Assembly (NCBI GenBank): GCA_003220685.1
Contig: QHTE01000065.1
Location: 25,906 to 89,905, forward strand
DNA length: 64,000 bases
Reading direction: 5' to 3'
Source of the DNA: Candidatus Rokuibacteriota bacterium
Lineage (GTDB): Bacteria; Methylomirabilota; Methylomirabilia; Rokubacteriales; CSP1-6
Shown here piece after piece: positions 4,387 through 19,516 of the stretch. Both the position numbers and the translations under genes were made by a program. Position 1 is the stretch's first letter. The number at the start of each line of letters is the position of its first letter. The notes beneath the pieces were generated by a model. That model was not told the origin of the DNA, searched no databases, and saw only the letters and a program-made list of their open reading frames with translations.

Positions 4387-6651
4387 ATGACACAGCGCTC
4401 AGAGCACGCAGAGGAGCTCCGGTCGAGCGTCGAGCGTGTGTGCCGCCTCGTTGCGACCGAAAACCTGGAAATGCTGGGCCTCGAGCGCCGAAGACTCGAG
4501 CAGGCGCTCGCCGGTCTGACCGCGGAGCGCAACGGTCTTCGCGCCGAGCGGGACGAGGCCCGCAGCGAGACGCGGCGGGCCGAGCTCAACCTTACCGCGG
4601 CGCGTCAGGTCCTCGACGACGGCCCGGATGGATTCATCGTCACCGACAAGGCCGGGGTCATCCTGCAGGCCAATCGCGCCGCGACCCAGATGCTCGGAGT
4701 CTCGAGCCGCTTCCTCGTCCGCAAGCCTCTCGCGCTGTTCATCGACGAGGCCGATGTGCGGACCTTCCGCTGGCTCGTCAACAATGCGCACGTATGGAAG
4801 CAGGGTGAGTGGCCCGTGCGCGTGCGCCCGCGCGACGGGACTTCGTTCATGGCCGGTCTCACGGTCACCGCGTTCACCGGGGGCGACGGCAAGACGTCGG
4901 ACCTCCGCTGGTTCCTGCGCGACATCGGAACGCGCCAGCGCGCGGAAGAGCTGGCGGCGGCCCACGAGTTCACACGTCAGATGCTGGAGAGCGAGCAGGC
5001 CGCACGAGCCGCGGCCGAGGCCGCGCGACGCGCCTCGGAGCTGCAGGGCGAGGTGGGCGGCCTTCTGGCGGCGTCGCTCGACTACCCGTCCGCGCTGTCG
5101 CGGATCGCCCCGCTGATCGTGCCGGAGACCGCCGACGTCTTTCTCATCGATGTGCTCGTCGACCGATCGCTCGAGCAGACCGCGATGGCCTGCGTCGACG
5201 CGCTCGGAGCCGAGCGGCTCGCGACGCGCGAGCCGCCGGATCCGGCGAGCGATCATCCGATCGCGCAGGTGGTCCGGACCGGCGACGCGCTCCTCGTGCC
5301 GGAGGTCTCGGGGCCTTGGCTGGCGAGGTGGGCGGTCTCGCCGGCGGCGGGCGAGGTCTGGAGGCAGATCGGGCTCGCGTCAGTGGTGGTCGTGCCGATC
5401 CAGTCCCATCGGCAAACGCACGGCGCGCTGACCTTCGGCTTCGGTCCGTCAGGGCGCCGCTACGGCGACGCCGATATGCGCCTCCTCCGGGACATCGCCC
5501 TGCGCATCGCGTTCGCCCTCGACACCGCGCGACTGTTCAGGGCGCTCGAGGCCGAGCAGCGCCATCGCGACGAGTTTCTCGCCATGCTCGCCCACGAGCT
5601 ACGCAATCCGCTCGGCGCCGTGACCAACGGGCTCGAGGCGCTCGAGCGCGCGAGCCCGTCGGACCGCGCCCTCCTGCTCCAGATCCTGAACCGGCAGTCG
5701 AGGCATCTGGCCCGGCTGCTCAACGACCTGCTCGACGTGTCGGGCGTCCGCTTCGGACGGCTCACGCTGCAACAGAAGCGCCTCGACCTGCGTGACCTCG
5801 CCCGCCAGTCGCTCGATGTGCTGCGGACGGCCGGCAAGAACCAGCCGACCATCACGCTGCGGGTCGATGCCGAGCCGGTCACTGTGGTGGGAGACGCCGA
5901 TCGGCTGATGCAGGTGATCGCCAATCTCCTCGACAACGCAGTCAAGTACACGCCCGGCGACGGCTCGATCGAGCTCTCGGTGGAGGCCGAAGGCCGCGAC
6001 GCCGTGGTGCGTGTGCGTGATTCGGGCGTCGGGATCGCGCGTGAGTTCCTCCCGCGGATCTTCGACGTGTTCTCGCGGGGCCGTGCGCTTCCCGAGCAGT
6101 CGAGACCGGGGCTCGGGCTCGGACTCTCGGTGGTCCGGGAGCTGGTCGTGAAGCATGGCGGCAGCGTGGAGGCCGGCAGTCCCGGACCCGGGCGGGGAAG
6201 CGAGTTCGTGATCCGCCTGCCGCTCCAGGACGATCAGAAGCTCCCGGCGTTCTCGGCGACCGTGTCGACTCCCGTCGCCGAGCGGTCCATCCTGATCGTC
6301 GAGGACCATGCGGACGCGGCGGAGGTGCTGCGCATGGCCCTCGAGCTGAACGGGCATCGCGTGAGAACGGCGAGCAACGGCCGGCAGGGGATCGAACAGG
6401 CGCTGGCCGAGCCGCCCGACGTCGCGCTCGTCGACCTCGGCCTTCCCGACATCGACGGCTGCGAGGTGGGCCGGACGGTTCGCGATCAGCCGGGCGGCGA
6501 CGGCGTGTACCTGGTCGCGCTCACCGGGCACAGCGGGGCAGCGGACCGCGACCGCGCGATGCGCTCGGGATTCGATGCCTACCTGATCAAGCCGGTCGCC
6601 CCCGACGCCCTGCGGGACGTCATCGCTCAGGCTCCTGCCCACCATAGGTGA
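4387..6651 (+). CDS. hybrid sensor histidine kinase (PAS-GAF-HisKA-HATPase-REC)
   Basis: Signal-transducing kinase of about 754 residues with no membrane segment. An N-terminal coiled coil (1-70) precedes a PAS domain (about 75-190), a short linker helix, and a GAF domain (about 215-375). The HisKA dimerisation domain has phospho-acceptor His403 in LAHELRNPLG. The ATPase domain shows NLLDNAVKYT, DSGVGIA and GLGLGLSVV. A C-terminal receiver has Asp683 in ALVDLGLPD and Lys in LIKPV. ATG 4387 is used; GTG 4381, two codons earlier, is possible. It directly follows cheB/cheR, so it is probably the kinase of that pathway. The output regulator is not in the window. Confidence 0.88.
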   Translation: MTQRSEHAEELRSSVERVCRLVATENLEMLGLERRRLEQALAGLTAERNGLRAERDEARSETRRAELNLTAARQVLDDGPDGFIVTDKAGVILQANRAATQMLGVSSRFLVRKPLALFIDEADVRTFRWLVNNAHVWKQGEWPVRVRPRDGTSFMAGLTVTAFTGGDGKTSDLRWFLRDIGTRQRAEELAAAHEFTRQMLESEQAARAAAEAARRASELQGEVGGLLAASLDYPSALSRIAPLIVPETADVFLIDVLVDRSLEQTAMACVDALGAERLATREPPDPASDHPIAQVVRTGDALLVPEVSGPWLARWAVSPAAGEVWRQIGLASVVVVPIQSHRQTHGALTFGFGPSGRRYGDADMRLLRDIALRIAFALDTARLFRALEAEQRHRDEFLAMLAHELRNPLGAVTNGLEALERASPSDRALLLQILNRQSRHLARLLNDLLDVSGVRFGRLTLQQKRLDLRDLARQSLDVLRTAGKNQPTITLRVDAEPVTVVGDADRLMQVIANLLDNAVKYTPGDGSIELSVEAEGRDAVVRVRDSGVGIAREFLPRIFDVFSRGRALPEQSRPGLGLGLSVVRELVVKHGGSVEAGSPGPGRGSEFVIRLPLQDDQKLPAFSATVSTPVAERSILIVEDHADAAEVLRMALELNGHRVRTASNGRQGIEQALAEPPDVALVDLGLPDIDGCEVGRTVRDQPGGDGVYLVALTGHSGAADRDRAMRSGFDAYLIKPVAPDALRDVIAQAPAHHR

Positions 6652-8958: not shown

Positions 8959-8987
8959 ATTTCACGGTTCCGTCATCATTTCGTAAC
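8959..8987 (+). promoter_or_regulatory. Pho box upstream of the ABC-ATPase-like gene
   Basis: Direct repeats at 11-bp spacing: ATTTCAC (8959-8965), CCGTCAT (8970-8976) and TCGTAAC (8981-8987), separated by 4-bp gaps. This is the architecture of the PhoB site (CTGTCAT, four bases, CTGTAAC in E. coli). The last unit is identical to one in front of pstS. It ends 14 bp before the ATG at 9002. Confidence 0.65.
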
Positions 8988-9001
8988 GATCCGTGTGGAC
9001 C

Positions 9002-9493
9002 ATGCCGGCCATGATCGAGCAGCTCGGGATCGGCGCTCCGCGGGAAGACGGCGGCTGGCGGCTGCACCGCGTCTGCGCGACCTTCGGGCGCGGTGAAGTG
9101 ACCCTGGTGGTCTCGTATCTGCCCGAGGAGCGGGACGCGCTGCTCGAGCGCGTCGGCCTGGGCGGCCGCGAGCTCGAGACCGCCTCCCGCCTCGGCACGG
9201 TCGATCGGGCACGGCTTGCGATCGCGAGCGCGCTCGTCAGCGCGCCCGGTGTGCTGGTGGTGCGCGAGGTCGATCGGGGGTTCGACGGCACCGAGGCGCT
9301 GAGCCTGCGCTCCGTGCTCCAGTCGCTCGCCCGCCGCGAGCGGCTGGCGGTCCTGGCCGGCGCGGCCACGCCGGCGGCGGCGATCGGATTCGCCGATCGG
9401 CTCGTGGCGATCGCCGACGGCCTCCTGGTCTTCGATGGCCCGCCGACCGACTTCCGCGATCAGCGGGTCGCGTGGCGCTTCGGCACCGCGTAG
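9002..9493 (+). CDS. degenerate ABC-transporter ATPase-like protein without Walker A
   Basis: A protein of about 163 residues that reads like an ABC ATPase with its ATP-binding parts removed. The C-terminal half keeps the register of the signature-to-Walker-B segment: LGTVDRARLAIASALVSAP, then GVLVVREVDRG where LLLDEP is expected. Then comes a D-loop/H-loop-like stretch and FADRLVAIADG. No GxxGxGKS and no Q-loop are present, and the switch His is lost (VLAGAATP). It cannot hydrolyse ATP in the normal way. It follows a Pho box and precedes the phosphate gene block, so a regulatory or structural role in phosphate stress is a guess. Alternative starts are GTG 8993 and ATG 9011. Confidence 0.6.
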   Translation: MPAMIEQLGIGAPREDGGWRLHRVCATFGRGEVTLVVSYLPEERDALLERVGLGGRELETASRLGTVDRARLAIASALVSAPGVLVVREVDRGFDGTEALSLRSVLQSLARRERLAVLAGAATPAAAIGFADRLVAIADGLLVFDGPPTDFRDQRVAWRFGTA

Positions 9494-9740: not shown

Positions 9741-10203
9741 ATGATCCGCATGGCCCGACGGGTCGGGCTCGACGGTCTGTCGCTCACCGAGCACTTTCAC
9801 GCGACTGGTGTTTCGCCCGAAGAAGGAGCTCGGGAAATTCCGCACGGACGATCTGCGCCGGCTTCACGCCCTCGAGGTGAACGGCAAGGACTTCGAGACG
9901 GAAGTCATGCTGCTCGCCCAGGCGCGCGCGCTCGGCTTGCCGATCGTCGCCGGCAGCGACGCCCATCACTGGCTCCAGCTCGGGGTGCGCCACACGCTCA
10001 TGCACCTGGACCAGATCCGCATCGCCATTGTGCTGACGACGATCAGAGAGGGCCTGACGGGCTTTGCAACATTCCCCTATACTCCGCTCCGCGTCAGGGG
10101 CGCTAAGTCCCTGAAAACTATTACGAAACTGTTACGAAAATGTTACGGCAGAGTGTTCGACGGCGGTACCCCGCGGCCTGCAGTGTCGACCGCAAGCAGC
10201 TGA
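9741..10203 (+). pseudogene. remnant of a PHP-domain phosphoesterase
   Basis: Two pieces of a PHP-family metal-dependent phosphoesterase lie in different frames. The first (from 9741) has RVGLDGLSLTEHFH. The second (frame of 9808) has FRPKKELG, then LHALEVNGKD and GLPIVAGSDAHHW near the C-terminus. The N-terminal HxH metal motif and roughly 70-100 residues between the two pieces are absent. The protein cannot be functional as written. The DnaA-box cluster abuts its 5' end, and a Pho box lies over its 3' end. Confidence 0.65.
10120..10148 (-). promoter_or_regulatory. Pho box in reverse orientation before the amphi-Trp genes
   Basis: On the minus strand three units, CCGTAAC (10148-10142), TCGTAAC (10137-10131) and TCGTAAT (10126-10120), are spaced exactly 11 bp with 4-bp gaps. 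These are the best-matching units in the window. The only downstream intact genes are on the plus strand (from 10218), so the site would work in reversed orientation, or it belonged to a gene now lost. Confidence 0.65.
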
Positions 10204-10217
10204 TCTGCCGGTAACAG

Positions 10218-10628
10218 ATGCCCCGGGTTGCGACGGGCCGGGGCGCCATCGTAGCGAAGCCGCTCGCAGTGCGTCAGTCGCGCACCGCCGGCCCCAAGGC
10301 CGTGGCGGTCGCGCCGGAGACGCCGCTGGCGCAGCCGGCTCAGAGGGAACAGCAGGTGAGTGCCGCGATTCCGGCGAAGTTCCACGCGCGCGCGCGCCGG
10401 GACGCGGCCGCGTTCTATCTCACGCAGCTGGCCAAAGGCGTCCTGGCGGGCGAGCTCGCGATCGCGGTCGGAGAGCAGCACATTCAGCTCGCGACGTCCG
10501 AGTTCGTGATTCTCAAGATCGAGGCCAAGCAGAGGAAGCGTGCGAACCACGTCAGCGTGAAGCTTCGATGGCCGAGACGTCCATTGATCCGGATCGCGAC
10601 GGCCGGAGGGAATCGTGATGGGAGATAG
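10218..10628 (+). CDS. amphi-Trp domain protein 1
   Basis: Small protein of 136 residues. The first 60 are Ala/Pro/Gln-rich and variable. The rest (AAFYLTQLAKGVLAGELAIAVG, then VILKIEAK, then VSVKLRWPRR) matches the two following proteins in order and spacing, ending with the conserved Trp. This is the amphi-Trp domain known from TIGRFAM/NCBIfam, whose function is not known. The true start may be the GTG at 10353 if the N-terminal extension is not translated. The 3' end overlaps the next gene. Confidence 0.65.
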   Translation: MPRVATGRGAIVAKPLAVRQSRTAGPKAVAVAPETPLAQPAQREQQVSAAIPAKFHARARRDAAAFYLTQLAKGVLAGELAIAVGEQHIQLATSEFVILKIEAKQRKRANHVSVKLRWPRRPLIRIATAGGNRDGR

Positions 10629-10869
10629 CGGGGAGTTCGAGTTCGAGGGAGCCGCAACGCCCTCCGAAGCCGCGGATGCGCTGAATCGCATCGCGGACGG
10701 GATCCGGGCACGCTCGCTGTCGCTCTCGATGGGCGAGGAGGAGATCACCGTCTATCCCGACGGCGACCTCGCGATGGAGATCGAGGCCAGCGAGAAGAAG
10801 GGGAAGGCGAAGATCGAGATCGCCATCGCCTGGAAGCGCGCCAAGAGCGACGACGACGACGAGGACTAG
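10618..10869 (+). CDS. amphi-Trp domain protein 2
   Basis: 83 residues comprising nearly only the domain: ALNRIADGIRARSLSLSMGEEEI, then DLAMEIEASEKKGKAKIEIAIAW, with the conserved Trp before an acidic tail (KSDDDDED). ATG 10618 has GGAGGG at 10605-10610; GTG 10615 is the alternative. It overlaps the previous gene by about 11 bp, a sign of coupled translation. It is the second of three tandem paralogues. Confidence 0.75.
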   Translation: MGDSGEFEFEGAATPSEAADALNRIADGIRARSLSLSMGEEEITVYPDGDLAMEIEASEKKGKAKIEIAIAWKRAKSDDDDED

Positions 10870-10889
10870 AGGCCGAAAGGGGCCCACGA

Positions 10890-11171
10890 ATGGCAAAGAA
10901 CAGTGTTCAGTTCGCCCGGATCGCGTCGCCCGAGGAAATCGCGGAATATCTCACGTCGCTGGCCGTCGGGCTCAAGCGCGGTGAGATCAGCCTCGAATCG
11001 GGCGAGCGCTCGCTCCATCTTTCTCCTGCCAGCGACGTCAAGCTCGAGCTGAAGGCGGGACAGAAGGAGCACAAGGGACGTATCGAGCTCGAGATCGGCT
11101 GGACGCGCTCGACGGCGGCGAAGACGTCGGAGCTCCGCGTCGCCGTCGGGCCCCGTCCCGGTCGCGCGTAA
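10890..11171 (+). CDS. amphi-Trp domain protein 3
   Basis: 93 residues with the canonical domain: IAEYLTSLAVGLKRGEISLESG, then DVKLELKAG and GRIELEIGWTRS. The alternating hydrophobic/charged strands and terminal Trp are as in the two preceding proteins. AAAGGGG about 7 bp before ATG 10890 serves as ribosome site. The gene lies 51 bp before the PhoU-phosphotransferase gene, in the order seen for GAK-type clusters. Confidence 0.78.
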   Translation: MAKNSVQFARIASPEEIAEYLTSLAVGLKRGEISLESGERSLHLSPASDVKLELKAGQKEHKGRIELEIGWTRSTAAKTSELRVAVGPRPGRA

Positions 11172-11222
11172 CCGCTTCCGCTCCCGCTCACGACCGGGAT
11201 TCCGGATCGGACGCAGAGATCC

Positions 11223-12596
11223 GTGACTAGCGTCCTGCGCGAAGACCTGGGCCAGGACCTCGCCATGATGGCGCGGCTCGTCCAGTCGCAGCTCATCCGC
11301 GGCATGACGGCCTTCTTCCAGCGCGACGCGCGGCTGGCGGAGCAGGTCACGCAGAAGGACGACCAGGTCGACAACCTGCTCGGCCTCATCGAGGTGAAGT
11401 GCTTCGAGCGCATCGCCGGCGATGAGCCCAACGGCGTCCGCTCGCGCCAGCTCCGCGGCGTCTTCCGCGTGGCCCTGAACCTCGAGAAGCTCGGCGACTA
11501 CGCCGTCAACATCGCCGAGCAGGCGGTCCACGTCTCCCGCCTCAAGGCCCGCCCGATCCCGTTCGACCTGGCCGGACCGGCGCGCGTCGCGCTCGCCGCG
11601 CTCGACGAGGTCATCACCGCGTTCACCGACGCGAGCGCCGACCTGGCCAAGCACGCCTGCCGCTGCGAGCTCGACCTCGACCGCCAGTATCGCGAGGCGT
11701 TGCAGGAGACGTTCCGTCGCCTCGGCCAGCCGCACCCGGATCCGGCGTTCGTCATCACCAACCTGTTCGTCGCGAAGTTCCTCGAGCGCATCGGCGACTC
11801 CATCCTGAACATCGGCGAGACGACGCTCTTCATCCTGACCGGCGAGCGGCTCAAGCTGCACCAGTATCTCCACCTGGAGCAGGTGGCCGGCACCGTCGCG
11901 CCGCACGCCGAGGGCGCCCTCGACTTCCGCCAGATCTGGGGCGGCATCAGCGGCGCGCGCGTCGGGATGGTCGCGGTCGGCCAGAGCGAGCCCTTGATCT
12001 GGAAGGAGGGCGACGAGCGGAAGATCGACGAGGAGATCCGAGAGATGGAAGCGTGGAACCGGATCGTCCCCGGCCTCGTCCCCGACGTGAAGGCCCGCCA
12101 CCGCGAGGACGGCCGGCTCTCCTTCCTCGGCCAGTTCCTGCGCGGCAGCCTGCTGCGCGACGTCTACATCACGCGCGGCTGGGAGGAGAAGGTCCGCGCC
12201 ACCCGGCGCCTGCTCGAGACCGTCCGCGACATCTGGTCGGCGACGCTCGTGAAGGAAGCACCCCGGATCGACTATGCGCGCCAGATCCGGGATCGGCTGC
12301 CCGAGCTCTTCGCGCTCCATCCCAAGCTCGAGTCGTTGCGCGGCGGCGAGAGCCGGGTGTTCGGGATCGCCCACGGCTCGCTCGCCGACCTGCTCGAGCG
12401 CGCCGCCGACCTCGAAGCCTCGCTGGCGCCCCCGGTGTCGGTCAGGCTGCACGGCGACTTCAACGCCAACAACATCGTCTACGACCCCGAGCAGGATCGC
12501 GTGCACTTCATCGACGTCCACCGCAGCGGGCACGGCGACTATCTGCAAGACATCGGCGTGCTGGCCACCTCGAGGCCTCGGGCGTTCCGGTGCTGA
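11223..12596 (+). CDS. PhoU domain fused to an APH-type phosphotransferase, C-terminus clipped
   Basis: Residues 1-215 form a PhoU-type helical bundle with the repeated E/D-rich helices (FRVALNLEKLGDYAVNIAEQ, FVAKFLERIGDSILNIGE). After a linker, residues about 240-445 form an aminoglycoside-phosphotransferase-fold domain with the catalytic HGDFNANN (His410, Asp412) and the metal-binding Asp in VHFIDVHRSG. The family sequence ends abruptly at DYLQDIGVL and the frame then runs eight odd residues to a stop. The next gene's family similarity begins in another frame within 15 bp. So the C-terminal part of the kinase appears deleted (or lost in assembly). The fusion suggests phosphate sensing tied to phosphorylation of a small molecule. 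Confidence 0.78.
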   Translation: MTSVLREDLGQDLAMMARLVQSQLIRGMTAFFQRDARLAEQVTQKDDQVDNLLGLIEVKCFERIAGDEPNGVRSRQLRGVFRVALNLEKLGDYAVNIAEQAVHVSRLKARPIPFDLAGPARVALAALDEVITAFTDASADLAKHACRCELDLDRQYREALQETFRRLGQPHPDPAFVITNLFVAKFLERIGDSILNIGETTLFILTGERLKLHQYLHLEQVAGTVAPHAEGALDFRQIWGGISGARVGMVAVGQSEPLIWKEGDERKIDEEIREMEAWNRIVPGLVPDVKARHREDGRLSFLGQFLRGSLLRDVYITRGWEEKVRATRRLLETVRDIWSATLVKEAPRIDYARQIRDRLPELFALHPKLESLRGGESRVFGIAHGSLADLLERAADLEASLAPPVSVRLHGDFNANNIVYDPEQDRVHFIDVHRSGHGDYLQDIGVLATSRPRAFRC

Positions 12597-13216
12597 GCAG
12601 TCCGGACCGTCTGCACGTCGCCGTGAACCGCTACCGGATGACGTGCGAGCTCGTCCGCGCGGGCCTGCCGGTGCCGCCGACCACGATCACCGAGGACCTC
12701 CACGAGGCCGCCGACGCCGTCGGGCGCTTCGGCACCGCCGTGCTCAAGCCGCTCTTCACCTCGAAGGGCCGCGGGATGCGGCGGCTCGAGCCGACACGCG
12801 ACCTCCGGGGCGAGCTCGAGTCGCACCGCGACGGCGGGCTCGGCCCCTTCTATCTCCAGCGGTTCGTGAAGCACCCGGGTCGGGACCTCGGCGTGGCCGT
12901 GCTCGACGGCCGGTGCATCGGCGCCTACTGGCGCGTCGCGGGCGCCGAGCAGTGGATGACGACGATCCTCTCCGGCGGCCGCTACGAGAAGGCGGAGATC
13001 GCGCCGGAGACGGCGGCGATGGCGGCGGCGGCCGCGCGCCACTTCGGCCTTGTCTTCACGGGCGTGGATCTCATCGAGGGCTCGGACGGACGCTTCAGCG
13101 TCCTCGAGGTGAGCGCGTTCGGCGGATTCCGCGGGCTGCTGAACGGCTGCGGCGTCGACGCAGCGCCGATGCTCGCCGAGGTGGTGCTCCGACGATTCCG
13201 CGAGGCGCGGGCATGA
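12590..13216 (+). CDS. ATP-grasp protein (GAK-type), N-terminus missing
   Basis: About 208 residues of a RimK-like ATP-grasp ligase: SSPDRLHVAVNRYRMTCELV, GLPVPPTTIT, VLKPLFTSKGRGM (ATP-binding loop), FYLQRFVKHPGRD, and the metal-binding end VLEVSAFGGFRG. GAK-type ATP-grasp proteins are about 300 residues. Here family similarity starts at LEASGVPV, upstream of the GTG at 12590, and the preceding N-terminal domain of roughly 90 residues is gone at the same junction that clips the upstream phosphotransferase. It ends in ATGA overlap with the HprK-related gene. ATP-grasp enzymes make amide or ester bonds; the substrate here is unknown. Confidence 0.72.
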   Translation: MLSSPDRLHVAVNRYRMTCELVRAGLPVPPTTITEDLHEAADAVGRFGTAVLKPLFTSKGRGMRRLEPTRDLRGELESHRDGGLGPFYLQRFVKHPGRDLGVAVLDGRCIGAYWRVAGAEQWMTTILSGGRYEKAEIAPETAAMAAAAARHFGLVFTGVDLIEGSDGRFSVLEVSAFGGFRGLLNGCGVDAAPMLAEVVLRRFREARA

Positions 13217-14265
13217 CGCCCGAGACGCGCGTGAAGGAGCTCGACACTCCCCACCGCCTTGCGCTCCGTTTCGCCGACGTGCCGATCGGGGTGCGGACCA
13301 ACGATCCCGAGATCCGGGCGCGCCTGGCGTCGTACTTCCGACCATATGTAATAGGCGGACCATCTCGGCCCCTGGCCGAGGTCGCTCTCATCCAGGGCGC
13401 GCTGCCCGTCTCGGATGACTTCGTCGACGTCCCCCGGGACGGCGGCCGCCGGCCGAAGGAGGCGACCAGAGAGGTCGCCGGCGGACGCCTGGTCATCAAG
13501 CGGGCGACCGGAGTCTTCATCGGGCTCTGGGCGGGAGGCGCGTTCGCGGTGGGCGACCTCCGCACGCACCTGAATCAGGGCATCAATCTCGTCAACAACT
13601 GCTACGCCAAGGTCGTGCTCCGCCGCGGCCACGTGCTGCTCCACGCCTCAGCGGTCACGCGCAAGGACCGCACCGCCGTGCTCGCGGGCCCGCCCGGGGC
13701 GGGGAAATCCACCTCGGCGCTCCATCTCGTCGAGGCCGGCTTTCGCTGCCTGTCCAACGACCGCGTCCTCGCCAAGCCGCTGCCCGACATGGTCGAGGCG
13801 CTAGGCTATCCCAAGCAGCCACGCGTGAACCCGGGCACGCTCCTCGGCCATCCGCGGCTCTCGACCCTGCTCGATCCGGCCGACCGCGACGCGCTGAGCG
13901 CGCTGCCGGCGCGCGAGCTCTGGGATTTCGAGCGCAAGTCTGACGTGGACCTGGACCGTATCTACGGGGACGGCACGGTCGAGCTCAGGGGACGCATGGA
14001 GGCTCTGGTCCTCTTGAAATGGCGCCGGGACGGCCGGGGCCTCGACGTCCGCCGTCTGTCGGTCGACGAGGCTCTCGCGGCGCTGCCGCTCGTCTACAAG
14101 AACCTCGGTGCCTTCGACCTCGACCGTACCCCTGGCTCCGGCATCACCGATGCGGAGCGCAAGTGCTACCGCGAGCTCTTCGCTCGGGTCACGGTGGCCG
14201 AGGTCACGGGTCGCGTCGATTTCTCGGGGCTCGTCCCCGTCATCGACCAGCTGCTGTCGAGATAG
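13213..14265 (+). CDS. HprK-related kinase B
   Basis: 350-residue relative of HPr kinase/phosphorylase. The P-loop GPPGAGKST is at residues 159-167, preceded by HVLLHASAV. It is followed by RCLSNDRVLAK, where HprK has its catalytic Asp, and later by LVLLKW. HPr kinase phosphorylates HPr on serine, but no HPr or PTS gene is near and this branch is known only by genome context with amphi-Trp and ATP-grasp proteins. It overlaps the ATP-grasp gene by 4 bp (ATGA), so the two are translated together. A Pho box follows 25 bp after the stop. Confidence 0.82.
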   Translation: MTPETRVKELDTPHRLALRFADVPIGVRTNDPEIRARLASYFRPYVIGGPSRPLAEVALIQGALPVSDDFVDVPRDGGRRPKEATREVAGGRLVIKRATGVFIGLWAGGAFAVGDLRTHLNQGINLVNNCYAKVVLRRGHVLLHASAVTRKDRTAVLAGPPGAGKSTSALHLVEAGFRCLSNDRVLAKPLPDMVEALGYPKQPRVNPGTLLGHPRLSTLLDPADRDALSALPARELWDFERKSDVDLDRIYGDGTVELRGRMEALVLLKWRRDGRGLDVRRLSVDEALAALPLVYKNLGAFDLDRTPGSGITDAERKCYRELFARVTVAEVTGRVDFSGLVPVIDQLLSR

Positions 14266-14289: not shown

Positions 14290-14329
14290 ATGTCACCCAA
14301 GATTTACCCGACCGTCATCGTCCCGTAAC
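14290..14329 (+). promoter_or_regulatory. Pho box upstream of phoB (four half-sites)
   Basis: Four 7-bp units at exact 11-bp spacing: ATGTCAC (14290-14296), GATTTAC (14301-14307), CCGTCAT (14312-14318) and CCGTAAC (14323-14329). This equals two adjacent PhoB-dimer sites. It ends about 50 bp before the phoB start and implies autoregulation. Confidence 0.75.
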
Positions 14330-14380: not shown

Positions 14381-15139
14381 ATGATGACCACGGATCGGCG
14401 CCGGGCTCTGCCGGGGGCCGGTCAGCCAGGCCGTCCGCGTCTGGGACGGGTGCTCCTCGTCGAGGACGAGCAGGACGTTGCCGAGTTGATTCGCTACAAC
14501 CTCACGAAAGAGGGCTACGACGTGATCCTGAGCGCCAACGGAAACGAGGCGCTCCGGCTCGCCCGCGAGCACCGGCCGGACGTGCTCCTGCTCGACATCA
14601 TGGTTCCCCAGCTCAATGGCTGGGAGGTATGCCGGCGGCTGAAGAAGGATCCCGATCTGTCGCAGATCCCCGTGATCATGGTCAGTGGGCGCGTGGAGGA
14701 GGGCGACAAGGTCCTCGGCTTCGAGGTCGGAGCCGACGATTACGTGACCAAGCCGTTCTCGCCCCGCGAGCTGATCGCGCGGATCCGCGCCGTGCTCCGC
14801 CGAGGCCGGCCGGCCGACGCCAAGGAAAAGAAGGCCAGCCTCAAGGCCGGCGATCTGGAGATCGACCGCTACCGGTTCGAGGTCCGGATGAAGGGGCGCC
14901 AGGTCGAGCTGACGCCGAAAGAGTTCGAGCTCCTGGCCACCCTGGTCGGGACTCCCGGTCGCGTGTTCGGGCGCGAGGAGCTGCTGGACATAGTCTGGGG
15001 CCGCGACGGCTTCGTGGAGCCCCGGACGGTGGACGTTCACGTGGCTCGGCTGCGGGGAAAGTTCGCCGCCGCGAAGCTCGAGGAGCCTGGAATCGAGACC
15101 GTGAGAGGGGTCGGCTACCGCTTCAAGGACAAGCCGTAG
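14381..15139 (+). CDS. phoB: phosphate regulon response regulator PhoB
   Basis: OmpR/PhoB-family regulator of 252 residues. The receiver domain (about 23-140) has the acidic pair in LLVEDEQD, phospho-acceptor Asp72 in LLLDIMVPQ, Thr/Ser in MVSG and Lys in VTKPFSP. The winged-helix DNA-binding domain (about 150-250) has VELTPKEFELL and TVDVHVARLRGK. ATG 14381 has GGGAGG at about 14369-14374; ATG 14357 would add eight residues. Preceded by a Pho box and followed by pstS, it is the obvious activator of this regulon. No PhoR kinase gene accompanies it. Confidence 0.85.
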   Translation: MMTTDRRRALPGAGQPGRPRLGRVLLVEDEQDVAELIRYNLTKEGYDVILSANGNEALRLAREHRPDVLLLDIMVPQLNGWEVCRRLKKDPDLSQIPVIMVSGRVEEGDKVLGFEVGADDYVTKPFSPRELIARIRAVLRRGRPADAKEKKASLKAGDLEIDRYRFEVRMKGRQVELTPKEFELLATLVGTPGRVFGREELLDIVWGRDGFVEPRTVDVHVARLRGKFAAAKLEEPGIETVRGVGYRFKDKP

Positions 15140-15142
15140 CGC

Positions 15143-15195
15143 GTGTCGCAGATTCGTAACAGCACCGAAACTTTCGCGCAACACCGTACTGTAAC
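15143..15195 (+). promoter_or_regulatory. Pho box array upstream of pstS
   Basis: Direct repeats at 11-bp spacing: GTGTCGC (15143-15149), TCGTAAC (15154-15160), CCGAAAC (15165-15171) and GCGCAAC (15176-15182), then CTGTAAC (15189-15195, 13 bp on). A -10-like CATAGAT follows at once. The pstS ribosome site and ATG are 15-28 bp further on. Confidence 0.75.
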
Positions 15196-15222: not shown

Positions 15223-16269
15223 ATGAAGACTGCGTGGCTCACGGCGCTGGCGTTACTCGCGACGAGCGCGTTCGCGCAGCCGGCCGCGGCCCAGACGCTG
15301 ATCAACGGCGCCGGCGCGACGTTCCCGTACCCGATCTACTCGAAGTGGTTCGACGAGTACACGAAGGTCGATCCGGAGGTGCGCTTCAACTACCAGTCGA
15401 TCGGGAGCGGCGGCGGCATCAAGCAGGTGACCGCACGCACAGTCGACTTCGGCGCCACCGACGGCCCGATGAGCGACGAGCAGCTCAAGGCGGCGCCGTC
15501 CGAGCTGTTGCACATCCCGACCGTGATGGGCGCGGTCGTCGCGACCTATAACCTGCCGAGCTCGCCGAAGCTCAAGTTCACCGGGGACATCCTCGCCGAC
15601 ATCTTCCTCGGGAAGATCACGAAGTGGAGCGACCCGAAGATCGCCTCGCTCAACGCTGGCGTGTCGCTACCGGATCAGCCGATCGTGGTCGTGCACCGGT
15701 CGGACGGGAGCGGCACCACCTACATCTGGGTGGACTACCTCTCGAAGATCAGCTCCGAGTGGGACAAGAAGGTCGGCCGCGGCACGTCCGTGAACTGGCC
15801 CGTCGGGCTCGGCGGCAAGGGCAACGAAGGCGTCTCGGGGCAGGTGAAGAGTCAGCCGGGCGCGCTCGGCTACGTCGAGCTCGCCTACGCGGTGAAGAAC
15901 AATCTTCCGGTCGCCTCGGTGAAGAACGCGGCCGACAAGTTCGTCACGCCCGTGATCGCCTCCACGACGGCAGCGGCGGCCGGAGCCGCCAGGAGCATGC
16001 CCGACGATTTTCGTGTCTCGCTCACGAACCCGGCGGGTGACGAAGCGTACCCGATCGCCAGCTTCACGTGGCTGCTCGTCTACCGCGACCAGCCCAACGA
16101 GCTGAAGGGACGGGCGCTCGCCAAGTTTCTCTGGTGGATGAGCCACGAGGGGCAGAAGTACGCCGACGACCTGCTCTACGCGCCGCTGCCCGCGCCGGTG
16201 GTCAAGCAGATCGAGGCGAAGATCAAGCAGATCACCTACCAGGGCAAACCGCTGCTGGCGGCCCGCTAG
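15223..16269 (+). CDS. pstS: phosphate ABC transporter substrate-binding protein PstS
   Basis: Periplasmic phosphate-binding protein of 348 residues with a Sec signal peptide (about 1-24, cleavage near AAAQT). Family motifs: NGAGATFPYPIYSKW, YQSIGSGGGI, DFGATDGPM and the phosphate-contacting HRSDGSGTT. The strong ribosome site GGAGGAGAG ends 4 bp before ATG 15223. First gene of pstSCAB-phoU, directly behind a Pho box array. Confidence 0.93.
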   Translation: MKTAWLTALALLATSAFAQPAAAQTLINGAGATFPYPIYSKWFDEYTKVDPEVRFNYQSIGSGGGIKQVTARTVDFGATDGPMSDEQLKAAPSELLHIPTVMGAVVATYNLPSSPKLKFTGDILADIFLGKITKWSDPKIASLNAGVSLPDQPIVVVHRSDGSGTTYIWVDYLSKISSEWDKKVGRGTSVNWPVGLGGKGNEGVSGQVKSQPGALGYVELAYAVKNNLPVASVKNAADKFVTPVIASTTAAAAGAARSMPDDFRVSLTNPAGDEAYPIASFTWLLVYRDQPNELKGRALAKFLWWMSHEGQKYADDLLYAPLPAPVVKQIEAKIKQITYQGKPLLAAR

Positions 16270-16275
16270 CGTCCG

Positions 16276-17241
16276 ATGGCCGTCGTCGCGGCGGTTCCGC
16301 GGGTCGAAGCGCAGGCAGCGCCGAGGAACCTCGGCGATCAGGTGCTGCGCCTCGTCCTGCGCGCCGCCGCGCTGACGCTCGTCCTGCTCGTCCTCGCGAT
16401 GGTCGTCTCGATGGTCCGCGCGTCGTGGCCCGCGATGCGGGCCTTCGGCTGGCGTTTCCTCGCCACCTCGACGTGGGATCCAGTGGCCGAGCAGTTCGGC
16501 GCGATCCCGTTCGTGTACGGTACCTTGCTCTCGTCGCTGCTCGCGCTGCTCATCGCGGTGCCGCTCGGCATCGGCGCAGCGATCTATCTCGCCGAGCTGG
16601 CGCCGGCGTGGATTCGTCCGCCGATCGCGTTCCTCGTGGAGCTGGTGGCCGCGGTGCCGAGCGTGATCTACGGACTGTGGGGCATCTTCGTCCTCGCGCC
16701 CCTCTTGAGGGTCTGGGTCCAGCCGGCCCTCGGCAAGACGCTGGGCTTCCTGCCGCTATTCCAGGGGCCTCCGTACGGCGTCGGCATGCTTGCCGCGGGC
16801 ATCATCCTGGCGATCATGGTCGTGCCGTACATCACGGCCGTGAGTCGTGAGGTGCTCCTGGCCGTGCCGACCAGCCAGCGCGAGGCGGCGCTGGCGCTCG
16901 GCGCCACGCGCTGGGAGACCACCCGCATCGCGGTACTGCGCTACGGCCGCTCGGGCCTGGTCGGGGCGATCCTGCTGGGCCTCGGCCGAGCGCTGGGCGA
17001 GACGATGGCCGTGACGATGGTCATCGGCAATCGGCCGGAGGTCGCCGTCTCGCTGTTCGCGCCGGGCTATACGATGGCCAGCGTCGTCGCCAACGAGTTC
17101 GCGGAGGCGACGTCCGATCTCTATCTGGCGGCGCTGATCGAGATCGGTCTCCTGCTCTTCGTCGTGACCGTCATCGTCAACGCGCTGGCGCGACTGCTCG
17201 TGTGGTCCGTCGGCGGCCCGGTCAAGGCGGTGCGCGAGTGA
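16276..17241 (+). CDS. pstC: phosphate ABC transporter permease PstC
   Basis: Inner-membrane permease of 321 residues with six or so hydrophobic segments. The ABC permease EAA loop reads REAALALGATRWE, and GLGRALGETMAVTMVIGN is the PstC-type signature. It starts 6 bp after pstS and its stop overlaps the GTG of pstA, giving tight coupling. Confidence 0.93.
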   Translation: MAVVAAVPRVEAQAAPRNLGDQVLRLVLRAAALTLVLLVLAMVVSMVRASWPAMRAFGWRFLATSTWDPVAEQFGAIPFVYGTLLSSLLALLIAVPLGIGAAIYLAELAPAWIRPPIAFLVELVAAVPSVIYGLWGIFVLAPLLRVWVQPALGKTLGFLPLFQGPPYGVGMLAAGIILAIMVVPYITAVSREVLLAVPTSQREAALALGATRWETTRIAVLRYGRSGLVGAILLGLGRALGETMAVTMVIGNRPEVAVSLFAPGYTMASVVANEFAEATSDLYLAALIEIGLLLFVVTVIVNALARLLVWSVGGPVKAVRE

Positions 17242-18080
17242 CGCCGAGGGCGCGCCGCGGCGTGAACGTCCTGATGTCCTGGCTGGCCGCCCTCGCCGCC
17301 GGCCTCGTCGTGCTCCCGCTGCTCATGATCTTCGCGTTCCTGCTCTGGCAGGGCGCGTCGGCGGTGAACCTCGATTTCTTCACCCATCTCCCCAAGCCGG
17401 TCGGTGAGGTGGGCGGAGGCATGGCGAACGCGATCGTCGGCACCCTGATGCTTCTCGCCCTGGCGGCAGTCCTCGGGCTGCCCGTGGGAATCCTCGGTGG
17501 GCTCTACCTCGCCGAGTCTCGCGACCGGCGGCTGCCCTGGCTGGCCCGGTTCCTGGCCGACGTGCTCAACGGCGTGCCCTCGATCGTCATCGGGATCTTC
17601 GCCTACTCGGTCATCGTGCTGCCGATGCGGCGCTTCTCGGCGCTGGCCGGCGCGTTCGCGCTGGCGGTGATCATGCTCCCGATCGTGGTGCGGACGAGCG
17701 AGGAGCTCGTGCGGCTCGTCCCGGCCTCGCTGCGCGAGGCGGCGCTGGCGCTCGGCATCCCCCAGTGGAAAGTGCTGCTGCGCGTCGTCCTGCCGACAGC
17801 CCGCGCGGGCATCATCACGGGCGTCATGGTGGCGATCGCTCGCGTCGCGGGCGAAACCGCGCCGCTCCTGTTCACGGCGTTCGGCAACCGCTTCTGGCAC
17901 CAGGGGCTCGATCAGCCGATCGCGGCCCTGCCGCTGCAGATCTTCGCCTACGCAATCGCACCCTATGACGACTGGCACCGTCAGGCCTGGGCCGGGGCCC
18001 TCGTGCTCATCGGCCTGGTGTTCGTGGTGAGCTTCGCAGCGCGCCTGGCGACCAGCGGCCGCTTCACGGGGGTAAGATAA
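17238..18080 (+). CDS. pstA: phosphate ABC transporter permease PstA
   Basis: 280-residue inner-membrane partner of PstC. The EAA loop REAALALGIPQWK, the ARVAGETAPLLFTAFGN signature and six predicted membrane segments fit PstA. GTG 17238 overlaps the pstC stop (GTGA) and is preferred over the longer in-frame GTG at 17202, which lies inside pstC. Confidence 0.92.
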   Translation: MTPRARRGVNVLMSWLAALAAGLVVLPLLMIFAFLLWQGASAVNLDFFTHLPKPVGEVGGGMANAIVGTLMLLALAAVLGLPVGILGGLYLAESRDRRLPWLARFLADVLNGVPSIVIGIFAYSVIVLPMRRFSALAGAFALAVIMLPIVVRTSEELVRLVPASLREAALALGIPQWKVLLRVVLPTARAGIITGVMVAIARVAGETAPLLFTAFGNRFWHQGLDQPIAALPLQIFAYAIAPYDDWHRQAWAGALVLIGLVFVVSFAARLATSGRFTGVR

Positions 18081-18086
18081 AACGCC

Positions 18087-18845
18087 ATGGCTGACGGTAT
18101 CGTCGTCCGCGACCTCAACGCCTGGTTCGGCAACGCGCACGTGCTGCACGGGATCGGCGTGACGATTGCGCCGAAGGCGGTCACCGCGGTCATCGGCCCG
18201 TCCGGCTGCGGCAAATCCACGTTCATCCGGTGTCTCAATCGGATGCACGAGGTCGTGCCCGGTGCCAGGGTGACGGGCAGCGTGCGGGTCGAGGGCCTGG
18301 ACGTGTACGCGCCCGGGATCGATCCGGTGCAGGTCCGCCGCAAGATCGGTATGGTCTTCCAGAAGCCGAACCCATTCCCGACGATGTCGGTGTTCGACAA
18401 CGTGGTGGCCGGGCTGCGGCTCGGCGGCGTCCGCGAGCGGTCGGTCATCGACGAGGCCGCGGAACGGGCGCTCCGACAGGCCGCGCTCTGGGACGAGGTG
18501 AAGGATCAGCTCGGCAAGTCGGGCGTGAGCCTCTCCGGCGGCCAGCAGCAGCGCGTGTGCATCGCGCGGGCGCTGGCGGTCGAGCCCGAGGTGCTGTTGA
18601 TGGACGAGCCCTGCTCGGCCCTCGATCCGATCGCCACCGCCAAGATCGAGGAGCTGATCCTCGAGCTGCGCAGCACGCTGACCATCGTGATCGTCACGCA
18701 CAATATGCAGCAGGCGGCGCGCGTGTCCGAGTCGACAGGCTTCTTCCTCCTCGGTGAGCTCGTCGAATTCGACGTGACGCGGCAGCTGTTCACGAATCCG
18801 CGCGACAAGCGGACCGAGGACTACATCACCGGCCGGTTCGGCTGA
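18087..18845 (+). CDS. pstB: phosphate ABC transporter ATP-binding protein PstB
   Basis: 252-residue ATPase energising PstCA. Walker [10 protein letters not shown] near residue 36, the PstB-specific FQKPNPFP (Q-loop), signature LSGGQQQR, Walker [14 protein letters not shown] and switch His in [11 protein letters not shown] are all intact. It lies 6 bp after pstA. Confidence 0.95.
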
Positions 18846-18859
18846 GAGCGGAGAACACG

Positions 18860-19516
18860 ATGCAGCGCCATTTTCACGAGGAGCTGGACGCGCTCAAGCA
18901 GACTGTGCTGGCCATGGGCGGCCTGGTCGAGGACCAGATCCGCCGCGTGATGCGCGCGCTCCTGGAGCGGGACAGCGACCTGGCCCAGGAGGTTATCGAC
19001 CGCGACCGGCAGGTGAACGCCTACGACGTCGAGATCGACGAGAAGTGCGTCGAGCTGCTGGCGCTCCATCAGCCGGCCGCCGGCGACCTGCGCTTCATCA
19101 CGACCGCGATGAAGATCGTCACCGACCTCGAGCGTATCGGCGACCAGGCCGTCAACATCGCCCAGCGCACGCTCGAGCTGAATCCGGAGCCGCAGCTCAA
19201 ACCCTACGTGGACCTGCCGCGGATGGCGGAGAAGGCCCAGCGCATGGTGAAGGAGAGTCTCGACGCGTTCGTGAGCCGGGACACCGAGCTGGCGCGGCGG
19301 GTGTGCGGCGAGGACTCCGACGTCGACGCGCTGAAGGAGCAGATCTTCCGCGAGCTCCTGACCTACATGATGGAGGACCCGAAGACCATCCCCCGCGCCA
19401 TCCGGCTCATCCTGGTCTCGCGCTTCCTCGAGCGCGTGGCCGACCACGCGACCAACATCGCCGAGATGGTCGTGTACATGGTGGAGAGCAAGATGGTGCG
19501 CCACATGCTCGCGTAG
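18860..19516 (+). CDS. phoU: phosphate signalling protein PhoU
   Basis: 218-residue two-fold helical-bundle protein that represses Pho signalling through the Pst transporter when phosphate is sufficient. Each half carries the metal-binding type motif: AMKIVTDLERIGDQAVNIAQ and SRFLERVADHATNIAEM. It is the last gene of the pst operon, 14 bp after pstB. A second PhoU domain is fused to a phosphotransferase at 11223, so the genome has at least two. Confidence 0.93.
   Translation: MQRHFHEELDALKQTVLAMGGLVEDQIRRVMRALLERDSDLAQEVIDRDRQVNAYDVEIDEKCVELLALHQPAAGDLRFITTAMKIVTDLERIGDQAVNIAQRTLELNPEPQLKPYVDLPRMAEKAQRMVKESLDAFVSRDTELARRVCGEDSDVDALKEQIFRELLTYMMEDPKTIPRAIRLILVSRFLERVADHATNIAEMVVYMVESKMVRHMLA

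Follow-up and report, generated by a model that had tools for sequence, protein, structure and literature searches.

A GAK cassette with a PhoU-phosphotransferase fusion beside the phoB-pst genes of a Rokubacteria-type genome

Introduction

What is a GAK cassette doing beside the genes for phosphate uptake? The question is raised by a 64,000-nucleotide stretch of contig QHTE01000065.1 from Candidatus Rokuibacteriota (the window below), which belongs to a 6.09-Mb metagenome-assembled genome (MAG) of 137 contigs. On its plus strand the remnant of a PHP phosphoesterase-like gene is followed by three amphi-Trp genes, by the gene of a fusion between PhoU and an aminoglycoside phosphotransferase (APH)-type kinase, called PhoU-APH here, by the genes of an ATP-grasp ligase and of HprK-related kinase B (HprK_B), and then by phoB, pstS, pstC, pstA, pstB and phoU. 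GAK is named by NCBIfam, and in the open full text of PubMed Central, which leaves most papers of subscription journals uncovered, no paper was found on this system, on its parts or on their combination with PhoU or the Pho regulon. The reading preferred here, to which we give a probability of roughly 0.55, is that the locus represents a subtype of the GAK cassette tied to the phosphate regulon, i.e. a PhoB-controlled, PhoU-gated kinase/ligase modification system.

Results and Discussion

The cassette in the window and in its relatives

The gene content and order of the locus (Table 1) are more than chance. The same cassette lies 5' of phoB and the pst genes in two relatives, one of the same genus (G050) and one of the same family (G067). 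An earlier note on this DNA had described six genes (three for amphi-Trp proteins, one each for the PhoU fusion, the ATP-grasp protein and the HprK-related kinase) as consecutive on one strand, and they are found so at their coordinates. Their content and order stand, while two of them proved to be truncated by one 492-bp deletion, and the PHP gene upstream, which belongs to the cassette of the window's subclade, had been missed. The order of the subtype is PHP phosphoesterase-like protein, amphi-Trp (one to three), PhoU-APH, RimK/MptN-like ATP-grasp protein, HprK_B. The assignment to the NCBIfam GAK system (TIGR04354, TIGR04355 HprK_rel_B, TIGR04356 grasp_GAK and TIGR04357 CofD_rel_GAK) is borne out by the hidden Markov models: the three amphi-Trp proteins (TIGR04354) and HprK_B exceed the cut-offs, and the ATP-grasp protein has grasp_GAK as its best match, under the cut-off. 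Unlike the system as named, the cassette of the window stands beside phoB-pst.

In G067 a PF04185 phosphoesterase gene on the opposite strand separates HprK_B from phoB. The pstS, pstC and pstA genes of G050 (L036, 3401-8268, minus strand) are of another type with long PstC and PstA; compared with the window they show 33-38% identity in the best pieces, and pstB 65%. The cassette and phoB of G050 remain together despite this difference. All six cassette genes are under purifying selection, with a ratio of nonsynonymous to synonymous substitution rates (dN/dS) of 0.09-0.37 over three genome pairs.

PhoU-APH is a regular GAK component

The gene of the PhoU-phosphotransferase fusion regularly forms part of GAK loci and is a newly recognised component of the system. 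An HprK_B search of genome contigs returned 260 relatives, and the best 80 of the 260 loci were kept. By profiles built in this analysis, within the stretch covered at each locus, an APH-type gene is present in 75 of these 80 loci, ATP-grasp in 76, amphi-Trp in 70, histidine phosphatase in 56, metallophosphoesterase in 54 and CofD in 26. Three of the five loci devoid of the APH-type gene (L050, L056, L070) have HprK_B starting at most 1.05 kb from the end of the stretch; the other two, L055 and L120, are either genuine exceptions or fragmentary loci. The order APH-type - ATP-grasp - HprK_B of the window is shared with most of the 80 loci. In the GAK loci on plasmids of three Rhodobacterales, the gene 5' of the ATP-grasp gene is annotated just as "aminoglycoside phosphotransferase family protein" or "phosphotransferase"; the plasmid proteins are 27-30% identical to G050 PhoU-APH over the full length, and their PhoU domain is weak (25.1, 39.0 and 18.8 bits, cut-off 23.5). 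Among the 72 full-length APH-type proteins (69 from the genome-scan loci and three from the plasmids), 72 match APH and 64 match PhoU at E<=0.001. Within the phylum of the window, the three genomes that have the fusion are also those that have HprK_B (94 genomes searched for the fusion, 95 for HprK_B), and stand-alone PhoU is present in many others. None of the NCBIfam models whose names contain GAK matched the four PhoU-APH proteins scanned.

The structure model of G050 PhoU-APH (mean predicted local distance difference test, pLDDT, 90.8), whose halves were assigned to PhoU and APH by Pfam, overlays Pseudomonas aeruginosa PhoU over 208 and 202 columns with template modelling (TM) scores to the target of 0.92 and 0.90 (PDB 4q25: 0.92), and it also overlays APH(3') kinases. 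ExxxD motifs are metal-binding in PhoU. The PhoU fold and two such motifs are found in the N-terminal half, both being read on the G050 orthologue, and both motifs are kept in 16/16 proteins of group I, i.e. outside the main Pseudomonadota clade (groups were assigned by hand, and L102 was put in group I although its position in the tree is basal on the other side). Unlike PhoU itself (TIGR02135), the protein is fused to an APH-type kinase, and the window copy scores 109 bits against this model, below the cut-off of 130.25.

The kinase half shares with APH(3') phosphotransferases and the choline kinase-like fold (PF01636) its fold, the HGDxxxxN motif and the downstream Asp. The residues that correspond to the catalytic ones of APH kinases (K261, E271, H410, D412, N414, N417 and D431) do not vary among the 72 aligned homologues. 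HGDxxxxN with the downstream Asp is present in 72/72 GAK kinases, a count that holds by choice, since the residues were picked from invariant columns of the same alignment. In contrast to the known kinases, PhoU-APH shows mostly 14-18% identity to APH(3') structures, scores well short of the cut-offs set for the listed NCBIfam APH models, and has GAK and pst genes as neighbours.

Two genomes each hold two complementary partial GAK loci (L135 and L153 in G447, L136 and L152 in G383): one of the pair carries ATP-grasp, HprK_B and CofD, the other amphi-Trp, PhoU-APH and HprK_B. Locus L097 branches among Gammaproteobacteria, yet its MAG bears the title Halobacteria archaeon; mis-binning or a wrong label may be the cause. 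The GAK locus of Qingshengfaniella has a NUDIX gene (L041, 5928-6386) between CofD and PhoU-APH.

Linkage to pst and phoU recurs in five lineages

Linkage of GAK to pst or phoU, judged within the flanks covered, recurs in five lineages. In the window's phylum the cassette lies 5' of phoB and pst in all three genomes with HprK_B over the cut-off (95 searched). In the phylum of G095 (43 genomes searched) pst stands beside GAK in three of five GAK genomes, four of the five being over the cut-off; the fourth carries an incomplete HprK_B at a contig end with phoU next to it, and the fifth (G492) has no pst gene in 20 kb. In the phylum of the FCPU426 MAG (45 genomes) pst lies beside GAK in 1/4; of the other three, two have a PhoB-like gene as neighbour (254 and 262 bits against a cut-off of 296) and the third has neither. 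The 22 Desulfobacterota loci, found in 20 of 297 genomes, include two beside pst (G101, which was the chosen centre, and G259); in G300 phoU alone lies beside GAK.

Outside Rokubacteria, 5 of the 78 genome-scan loci have pst genes in the stretch covered (L051, L066, L099 and the closely related pair L045 and L046). The number expected by chance is about 0.5, an estimate that uses rough genome sizes and treats loci as independent. The remaining loci show no pst in the stretch covered, many of these stretches being ended by contig ends. Not counted as linked were L097 (a weak PstS-like match, 27.7% identity), L102 (just a PhoB-like gene) and L058, whose pst genes are ~13 kb away and which is counted once, as G101/L131. 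In 32 genomes hand-picked from the 80, with loci already known to be linked included, PstB over the cut-off occurs in 29 and lies within 15 kb of HprK_B in five (G095, G096, G100, G101 and G117).

A tree of 91 PhoU-APH proteins, with 10 rows labelled linked and 59 unlinked, requires 6 state changes, at least 5 of them forced by well-supported branches. The tree was made by a quick method with long branches flagged; L058 was dropped as the same locus as L131, L066 is not included, L151 is labelled linked on phoU alone, L129 is labelled unlinked though beside a PhoB-like gene, and 22 rows with flanks under 7.5 kb are unlabelled. A single old event as the origin of pst linkage is not supported, since the tree needs at least five changes. 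The link to phosphate that the earlier note drew from gene order stands for 3/3 genomes of the phylum and recurs in other phyla; most GAK loci examined do not show it within the flanks covered.

Two arrangements involving phoU were also seen. In Nitratidesulfovibrio liaohensis (L133, G097:C162) a CofD_GAK gene (435 bits, cut-off 340) is next to phoU-pstB-phoB, while the GAK locus of this organism is on a different contig. In L118 a stand-alone phoU gene (4786-5436, 182.6 bits) sits inside a gammaproteobacterial GAK gene run, between histidine phosphatase and metallophosphoesterase.

Deletions in the window copy

Table 1. Features of the GAK and phoB-pst region of the window (positions in the 64,000-nucleotide stretch).
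Feature	Position	Strand	Evidence
PHP phosphoesterase-like gene remnant (PHP_C domain), disrupted	9808..10203	+	PF13263 27 bits, cut-off 21.3
Pho-box-like site, three direct 11-bp units	10118..10150	+	motif scan; 68-100 bp 5' of first amphi-Trp gene, inside coding 3' end of PHP open reading frame
amphi-Trp protein 1, 136 aa	10218..10628	+	TIGR04354 37.5 bits (cut-off 31); PF20068 19.3, below cut-off 27
amphi-Trp protein 2, 84 aa	10615..10869	+	TIGR04354 63.7 bits (cut-off 31)
amphi-Trp protein 3, 93 aa	10890..11171	+	TIGR04354 56.9 bits (cut-off 31)
PhoU-APH fusion kinase, truncated	11223..12596	+	PF01895 111.9 bits in two stretches; PF01636 34.1 bits over profile 145-216 of 239
Junction of 492-bp deletion relative to G050	12563..12564	.	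alignment
GAK ATP-grasp ligase, N-terminal part absent	12590..13216	+	TIGR04356 194 bits, profile 87-286 of 287; cut-off 300
HprK-related kinase B	13213..14265	+	TIGR04355 243 bits, cut-off 200
phoB response regulator	14381..15139	+	TIGR02154 265 bits, best model, under cut-off 296.2
Pho-box-like site 5' of pstS	15145..15162	-	third best of window, score 13.3, within range of three shuffles
pstS	15223..16269	+	TIGR00975 406.8 bits, cut-off 205
pstC	16276..17241	+	TIGR02138 308.4 bits, cut-off 196.45
pstA	17202..18080	+	TIGR00974 271.2 bits, cut-off 193.45
pstB	18087..18845	+	TIGR00972 379.2 bits, cut-off 343.2
phoU, stand-alone	18860..19516	+	TIGR02135 252.6 bits, cut-off 130.25

Alignment of the window with its relatives reveals two gaps. 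At 12563/12564 the window lacks 492 bp with respect to G050 (491 bp with respect to G067), and at 9807/9808 it lacks 260 bp with respect to G050, which disrupts the PHP gene, full length in both relatives. Through the larger deletion PhoU-APH loses ~80 residues at the end of its APH half, and the ATP-grasp protein loses its first ~85. The two truncated genes are in different frames, and therefore the join yields no fusion protein of both. The PhoU half (residues ~1-209) is intact, and up to the junction the protein is 94% identical to that of G050; the intact proteins have 532 residues in G050 and 534 in G067. The lost end includes D485, R491, R498, S503 and R505, which are invariant in the 72 aligned homologues.

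The loss is recent or an assembly error, because purifying selection is seen in the coding parts that flank the 492-bp gap on either side (dN/dS 0.11 and 0.15 against G050). We see an even chance that both deletions are assembly errors and that the real genome has an intact cassette, a matter separate from that of function. The selection on the broken halves, the origin of the sequence from a MAG and the occurrence of two deletions within 3 kb all agree with such an error; a recent genuine deletion would give the same picture.

Pho-box-like sites

Sites were scored with the E. coli consensus. The two best sites of the 64 kb form an overlapping pair at 10118 (score 14.3) and 10129 (14.6), directly 5' of the amphi-Trp genes; the maxima of three one-strand mononucleotide shuffles are 11.9, 12.5 and 13.5. 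With an IUPAC pattern and at most one mismatch the same two sites are the only matches, i.e. 2 found against 0.38 expected, and 4 of 100 shuffles reach 2. Pho-box units had been claimed before the cassette in reverse orientation; Pho-box-like units are present there, in the forward one. The core of the 10118-10150 site is kept in G050 and G067, but it also encodes the end of PHP, and conservation alone consequently proves nothing. A Pho box of phoB had been claimed after the cassette: a site does exist at 14312, but its score of 11.7, like the 13.3 of the site 5' of pstS, is within the shuffled range. In G050 the counterpart of the phoB site scores 12.7, more than any other site in the 20 kb scanned.

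Another Pho-box-like pair (12.2 and 11.4, within the shuffled range) lies in the stretch 8959-9493, 5' of an open reading frame at 8993-9493 that looks like a piece of an ABC-type ATPase and to which no Pfam family matched at E<=1. DNA homologous to this stretch is present in G050, with a similar site scoring 11.7.

Other parts of the cassette

The model of amphi-Trp protein 2 (pLDDT 84.5) consists of a helix and four strands. It has no PDB match at E<=0.001, the best profile matches are designed proteins, and no function is read from the fold. One Trp is invariant in 43 aligned amphi-Trp proteins. The idea of a LysW-like carrier with a modified acidic C-terminus is retained only within the wider claim made below: acidic tails occur on amphi-Trp 2 in all three Rokubacteria genomes and in a few other cases (e.g. 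L101), but they are not conserved. Being the most regular non-enzymatic part, the amphi-Trp proteins are candidates for the modified substrate.

HprK_B, a P-loop kinase, has a distant relationship to HPr kinase, with a score of 18 bits to PDB 1jb1. Among 57 genomes of the family, strong PHP matches occur just in that of the window (G000), G050 and G067, with two weak ones at E ~5e-4. PHP lies directly 5' of amphi-Trp in L043, L044, L045, L046, L155 and L156, the six members of the window's branch, and in 0/107 other loci of the same search (the latter include a few duplicates and pst-only contigs, and the profile was built from four of the six loci it then found). PHP is thus the partner of the kinases in the window's subtype, and most Pseudomonadota loci have histidine phosphatase and metallophosphoesterase instead. 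The Desulfobacterota and FCPU426 types yielded no phosphatase in a search with the profiles of these three families only.

A CofD-like protein is not a universal GAK feature. CofD_GAK is over the cut-off in G100, G101, G259 and G300 and under it in 12 of 16 GAK genomes tested (the window's subtype and FCPU426); the best TIGR04357 match in G000 has 88.7 bits (cut-off 340). The earlier note had not seen this component at the locus, and it is in fact over the cut-off in none of the three Rokubacteria genomes. The XXXCH-domain family, likewise not seen there, was absent from scans of the window proteins, no XXXCH model being run genome-wide.

After grasp_GAK, the closest named families of the ATP-grasp protein are MptN and RimK, and in the PDB RimK/LysX; it belongs to this ligase family by sequence and scores below the cut-offs of its named members. 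This kinship, together with the CofD-like protein in 26/80 loci and the loss of the ExxxD motifs from Pseudomonadota PhoU halves, would suit another function of GAK, namely synthesis of a small phosphorylated, amino-acid-conjugated cofactor or metabolite by F420- or methanopterin-like chemistry, with PhoU as a dimerisation module and the phosphate link regulatory only. Such a role is possible and appears rather unlikely in view of the recurrence of pst linkage in separate lineages and of the 12/16 genomes with CofD_GAK under the cut-off, all 16 having an HprK_B match.

The earlier note had suggested a storage or peptide-like product. We consider it improbable that GAK builds a storage compound, for instance a polymer rich in phosphate or amino acids whose granules or scaffold would consist of amphi-Trp proteins. 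The presence in most loci of at least one amphi-Trp gene, often several, next to the enzyme genes, the RimK-type ligase and the link to the phosphate regulon would be in line with storage, which fits poorly with induction in phosphate shortage; there is also no polymerase or depolymerase among the annotated genes, though no search aimed at one was made.

Evidence against a phosphate-linked role

Several observations weigh against the proposed tie to the phosphate regulon. Most of the GAK loci examined lack pst neighbours within the flanks covered, and this holds chiefly for Pseudomonadota. No pst genes occur in the stretch covered at 20/22 Desulfobacterota loci, some of these stretches being short, and the choice of the phyla of G095, G117 and G101 for searching followed from a linked locus already known in each. 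The site at 10118-10150 overlaps the PHP coding sequence. In the promoter test, made on the 72 of 83 loci with a usable region (Rokubacteria included, 200 shuffles each), 11/72 GAK promoters carry a site at p<0.05 against 19/226 control promoters, i.e. other promoters of the same loci with 100 shuffles each (Fisher p 0.11); a looser threshold gives 15/72 against 22/226 (p 0.02), and one of five scrambled motifs gave 10/72. Both ExxxD motifs are kept in 0/56 group II proteins. The ATP-grasp protein scores under the TIGR04356 cut-off of 300 even when intact (284 bits in the two relatives), and the cassette copy of this MAG, with ATP-grasp and PhoU-APH truncated, is probably inactive as assembled.

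If the neighbourhood were accidental, a degraded GAK cassette would happen to lie beside pst, and the Pho box would be a by-product of the PHP coding sequence. The two deletions, the place of the site in the 3' coding end of PHP and the absence of pst beside most GAK loci elsewhere are what one would then see. Such an accident is very improbable all the same: the order is the same in G050 and G067 despite the other type of pstS, pstC and pstA in G050, linkage recurs in other phyla (~0.5 expected, 5 seen in 78 loci), dN/dS is below 0.4, and PhoU is inside the GAK kinase itself.

Proposed function

A PhoU-fused kinase that is a regular part of GAK and stands beside phosphate-uptake genes suggests a role for GAK in the response to phosphate shortage. 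In the phosphate-regulon reading, PhoB would turn the cassette on at low phosphate. The PhoU half may dock onto the Pst/PhoU signalling machinery or bind its metal cluster, and could thereby gate the APH kinase, so that activity would track the phosphate status. The ATP-grasp enzyme, judged by the carboxylate-amine ligation of its family, would couple an amino-acid-like group to a carboxylate; HprK_B might add a phosphate to the same substrate from which the PHP enzyme might remove it. That substrate may be a small molecule or the amphi-Trp proteins themselves, and the outcome would be a reversible, phosphate-gated modification.

A wider claim is put forward tentatively, with the odds against it: GAK in at least five lineages could be a phosphate-status-gated modification system with PhoU-APH as the core enzyme, in which amphi-Trp carriers would receive a reversibly phosphorylated amino-acid-like group via ATP-grasp. 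If true, Pst/PhoU signalling would have a new output branch that does not run through PhoR-PhoB.

Conclusions

GAK has been a named but functionally blank system. The PhoU-bearing kinase, together with the position of the cassette beside the pst operon in several lineages, gives it a first testable function, a response to phosphate. PhoU may gate an enzyme directly in this system, which bears on how PhoU transmits its signal.

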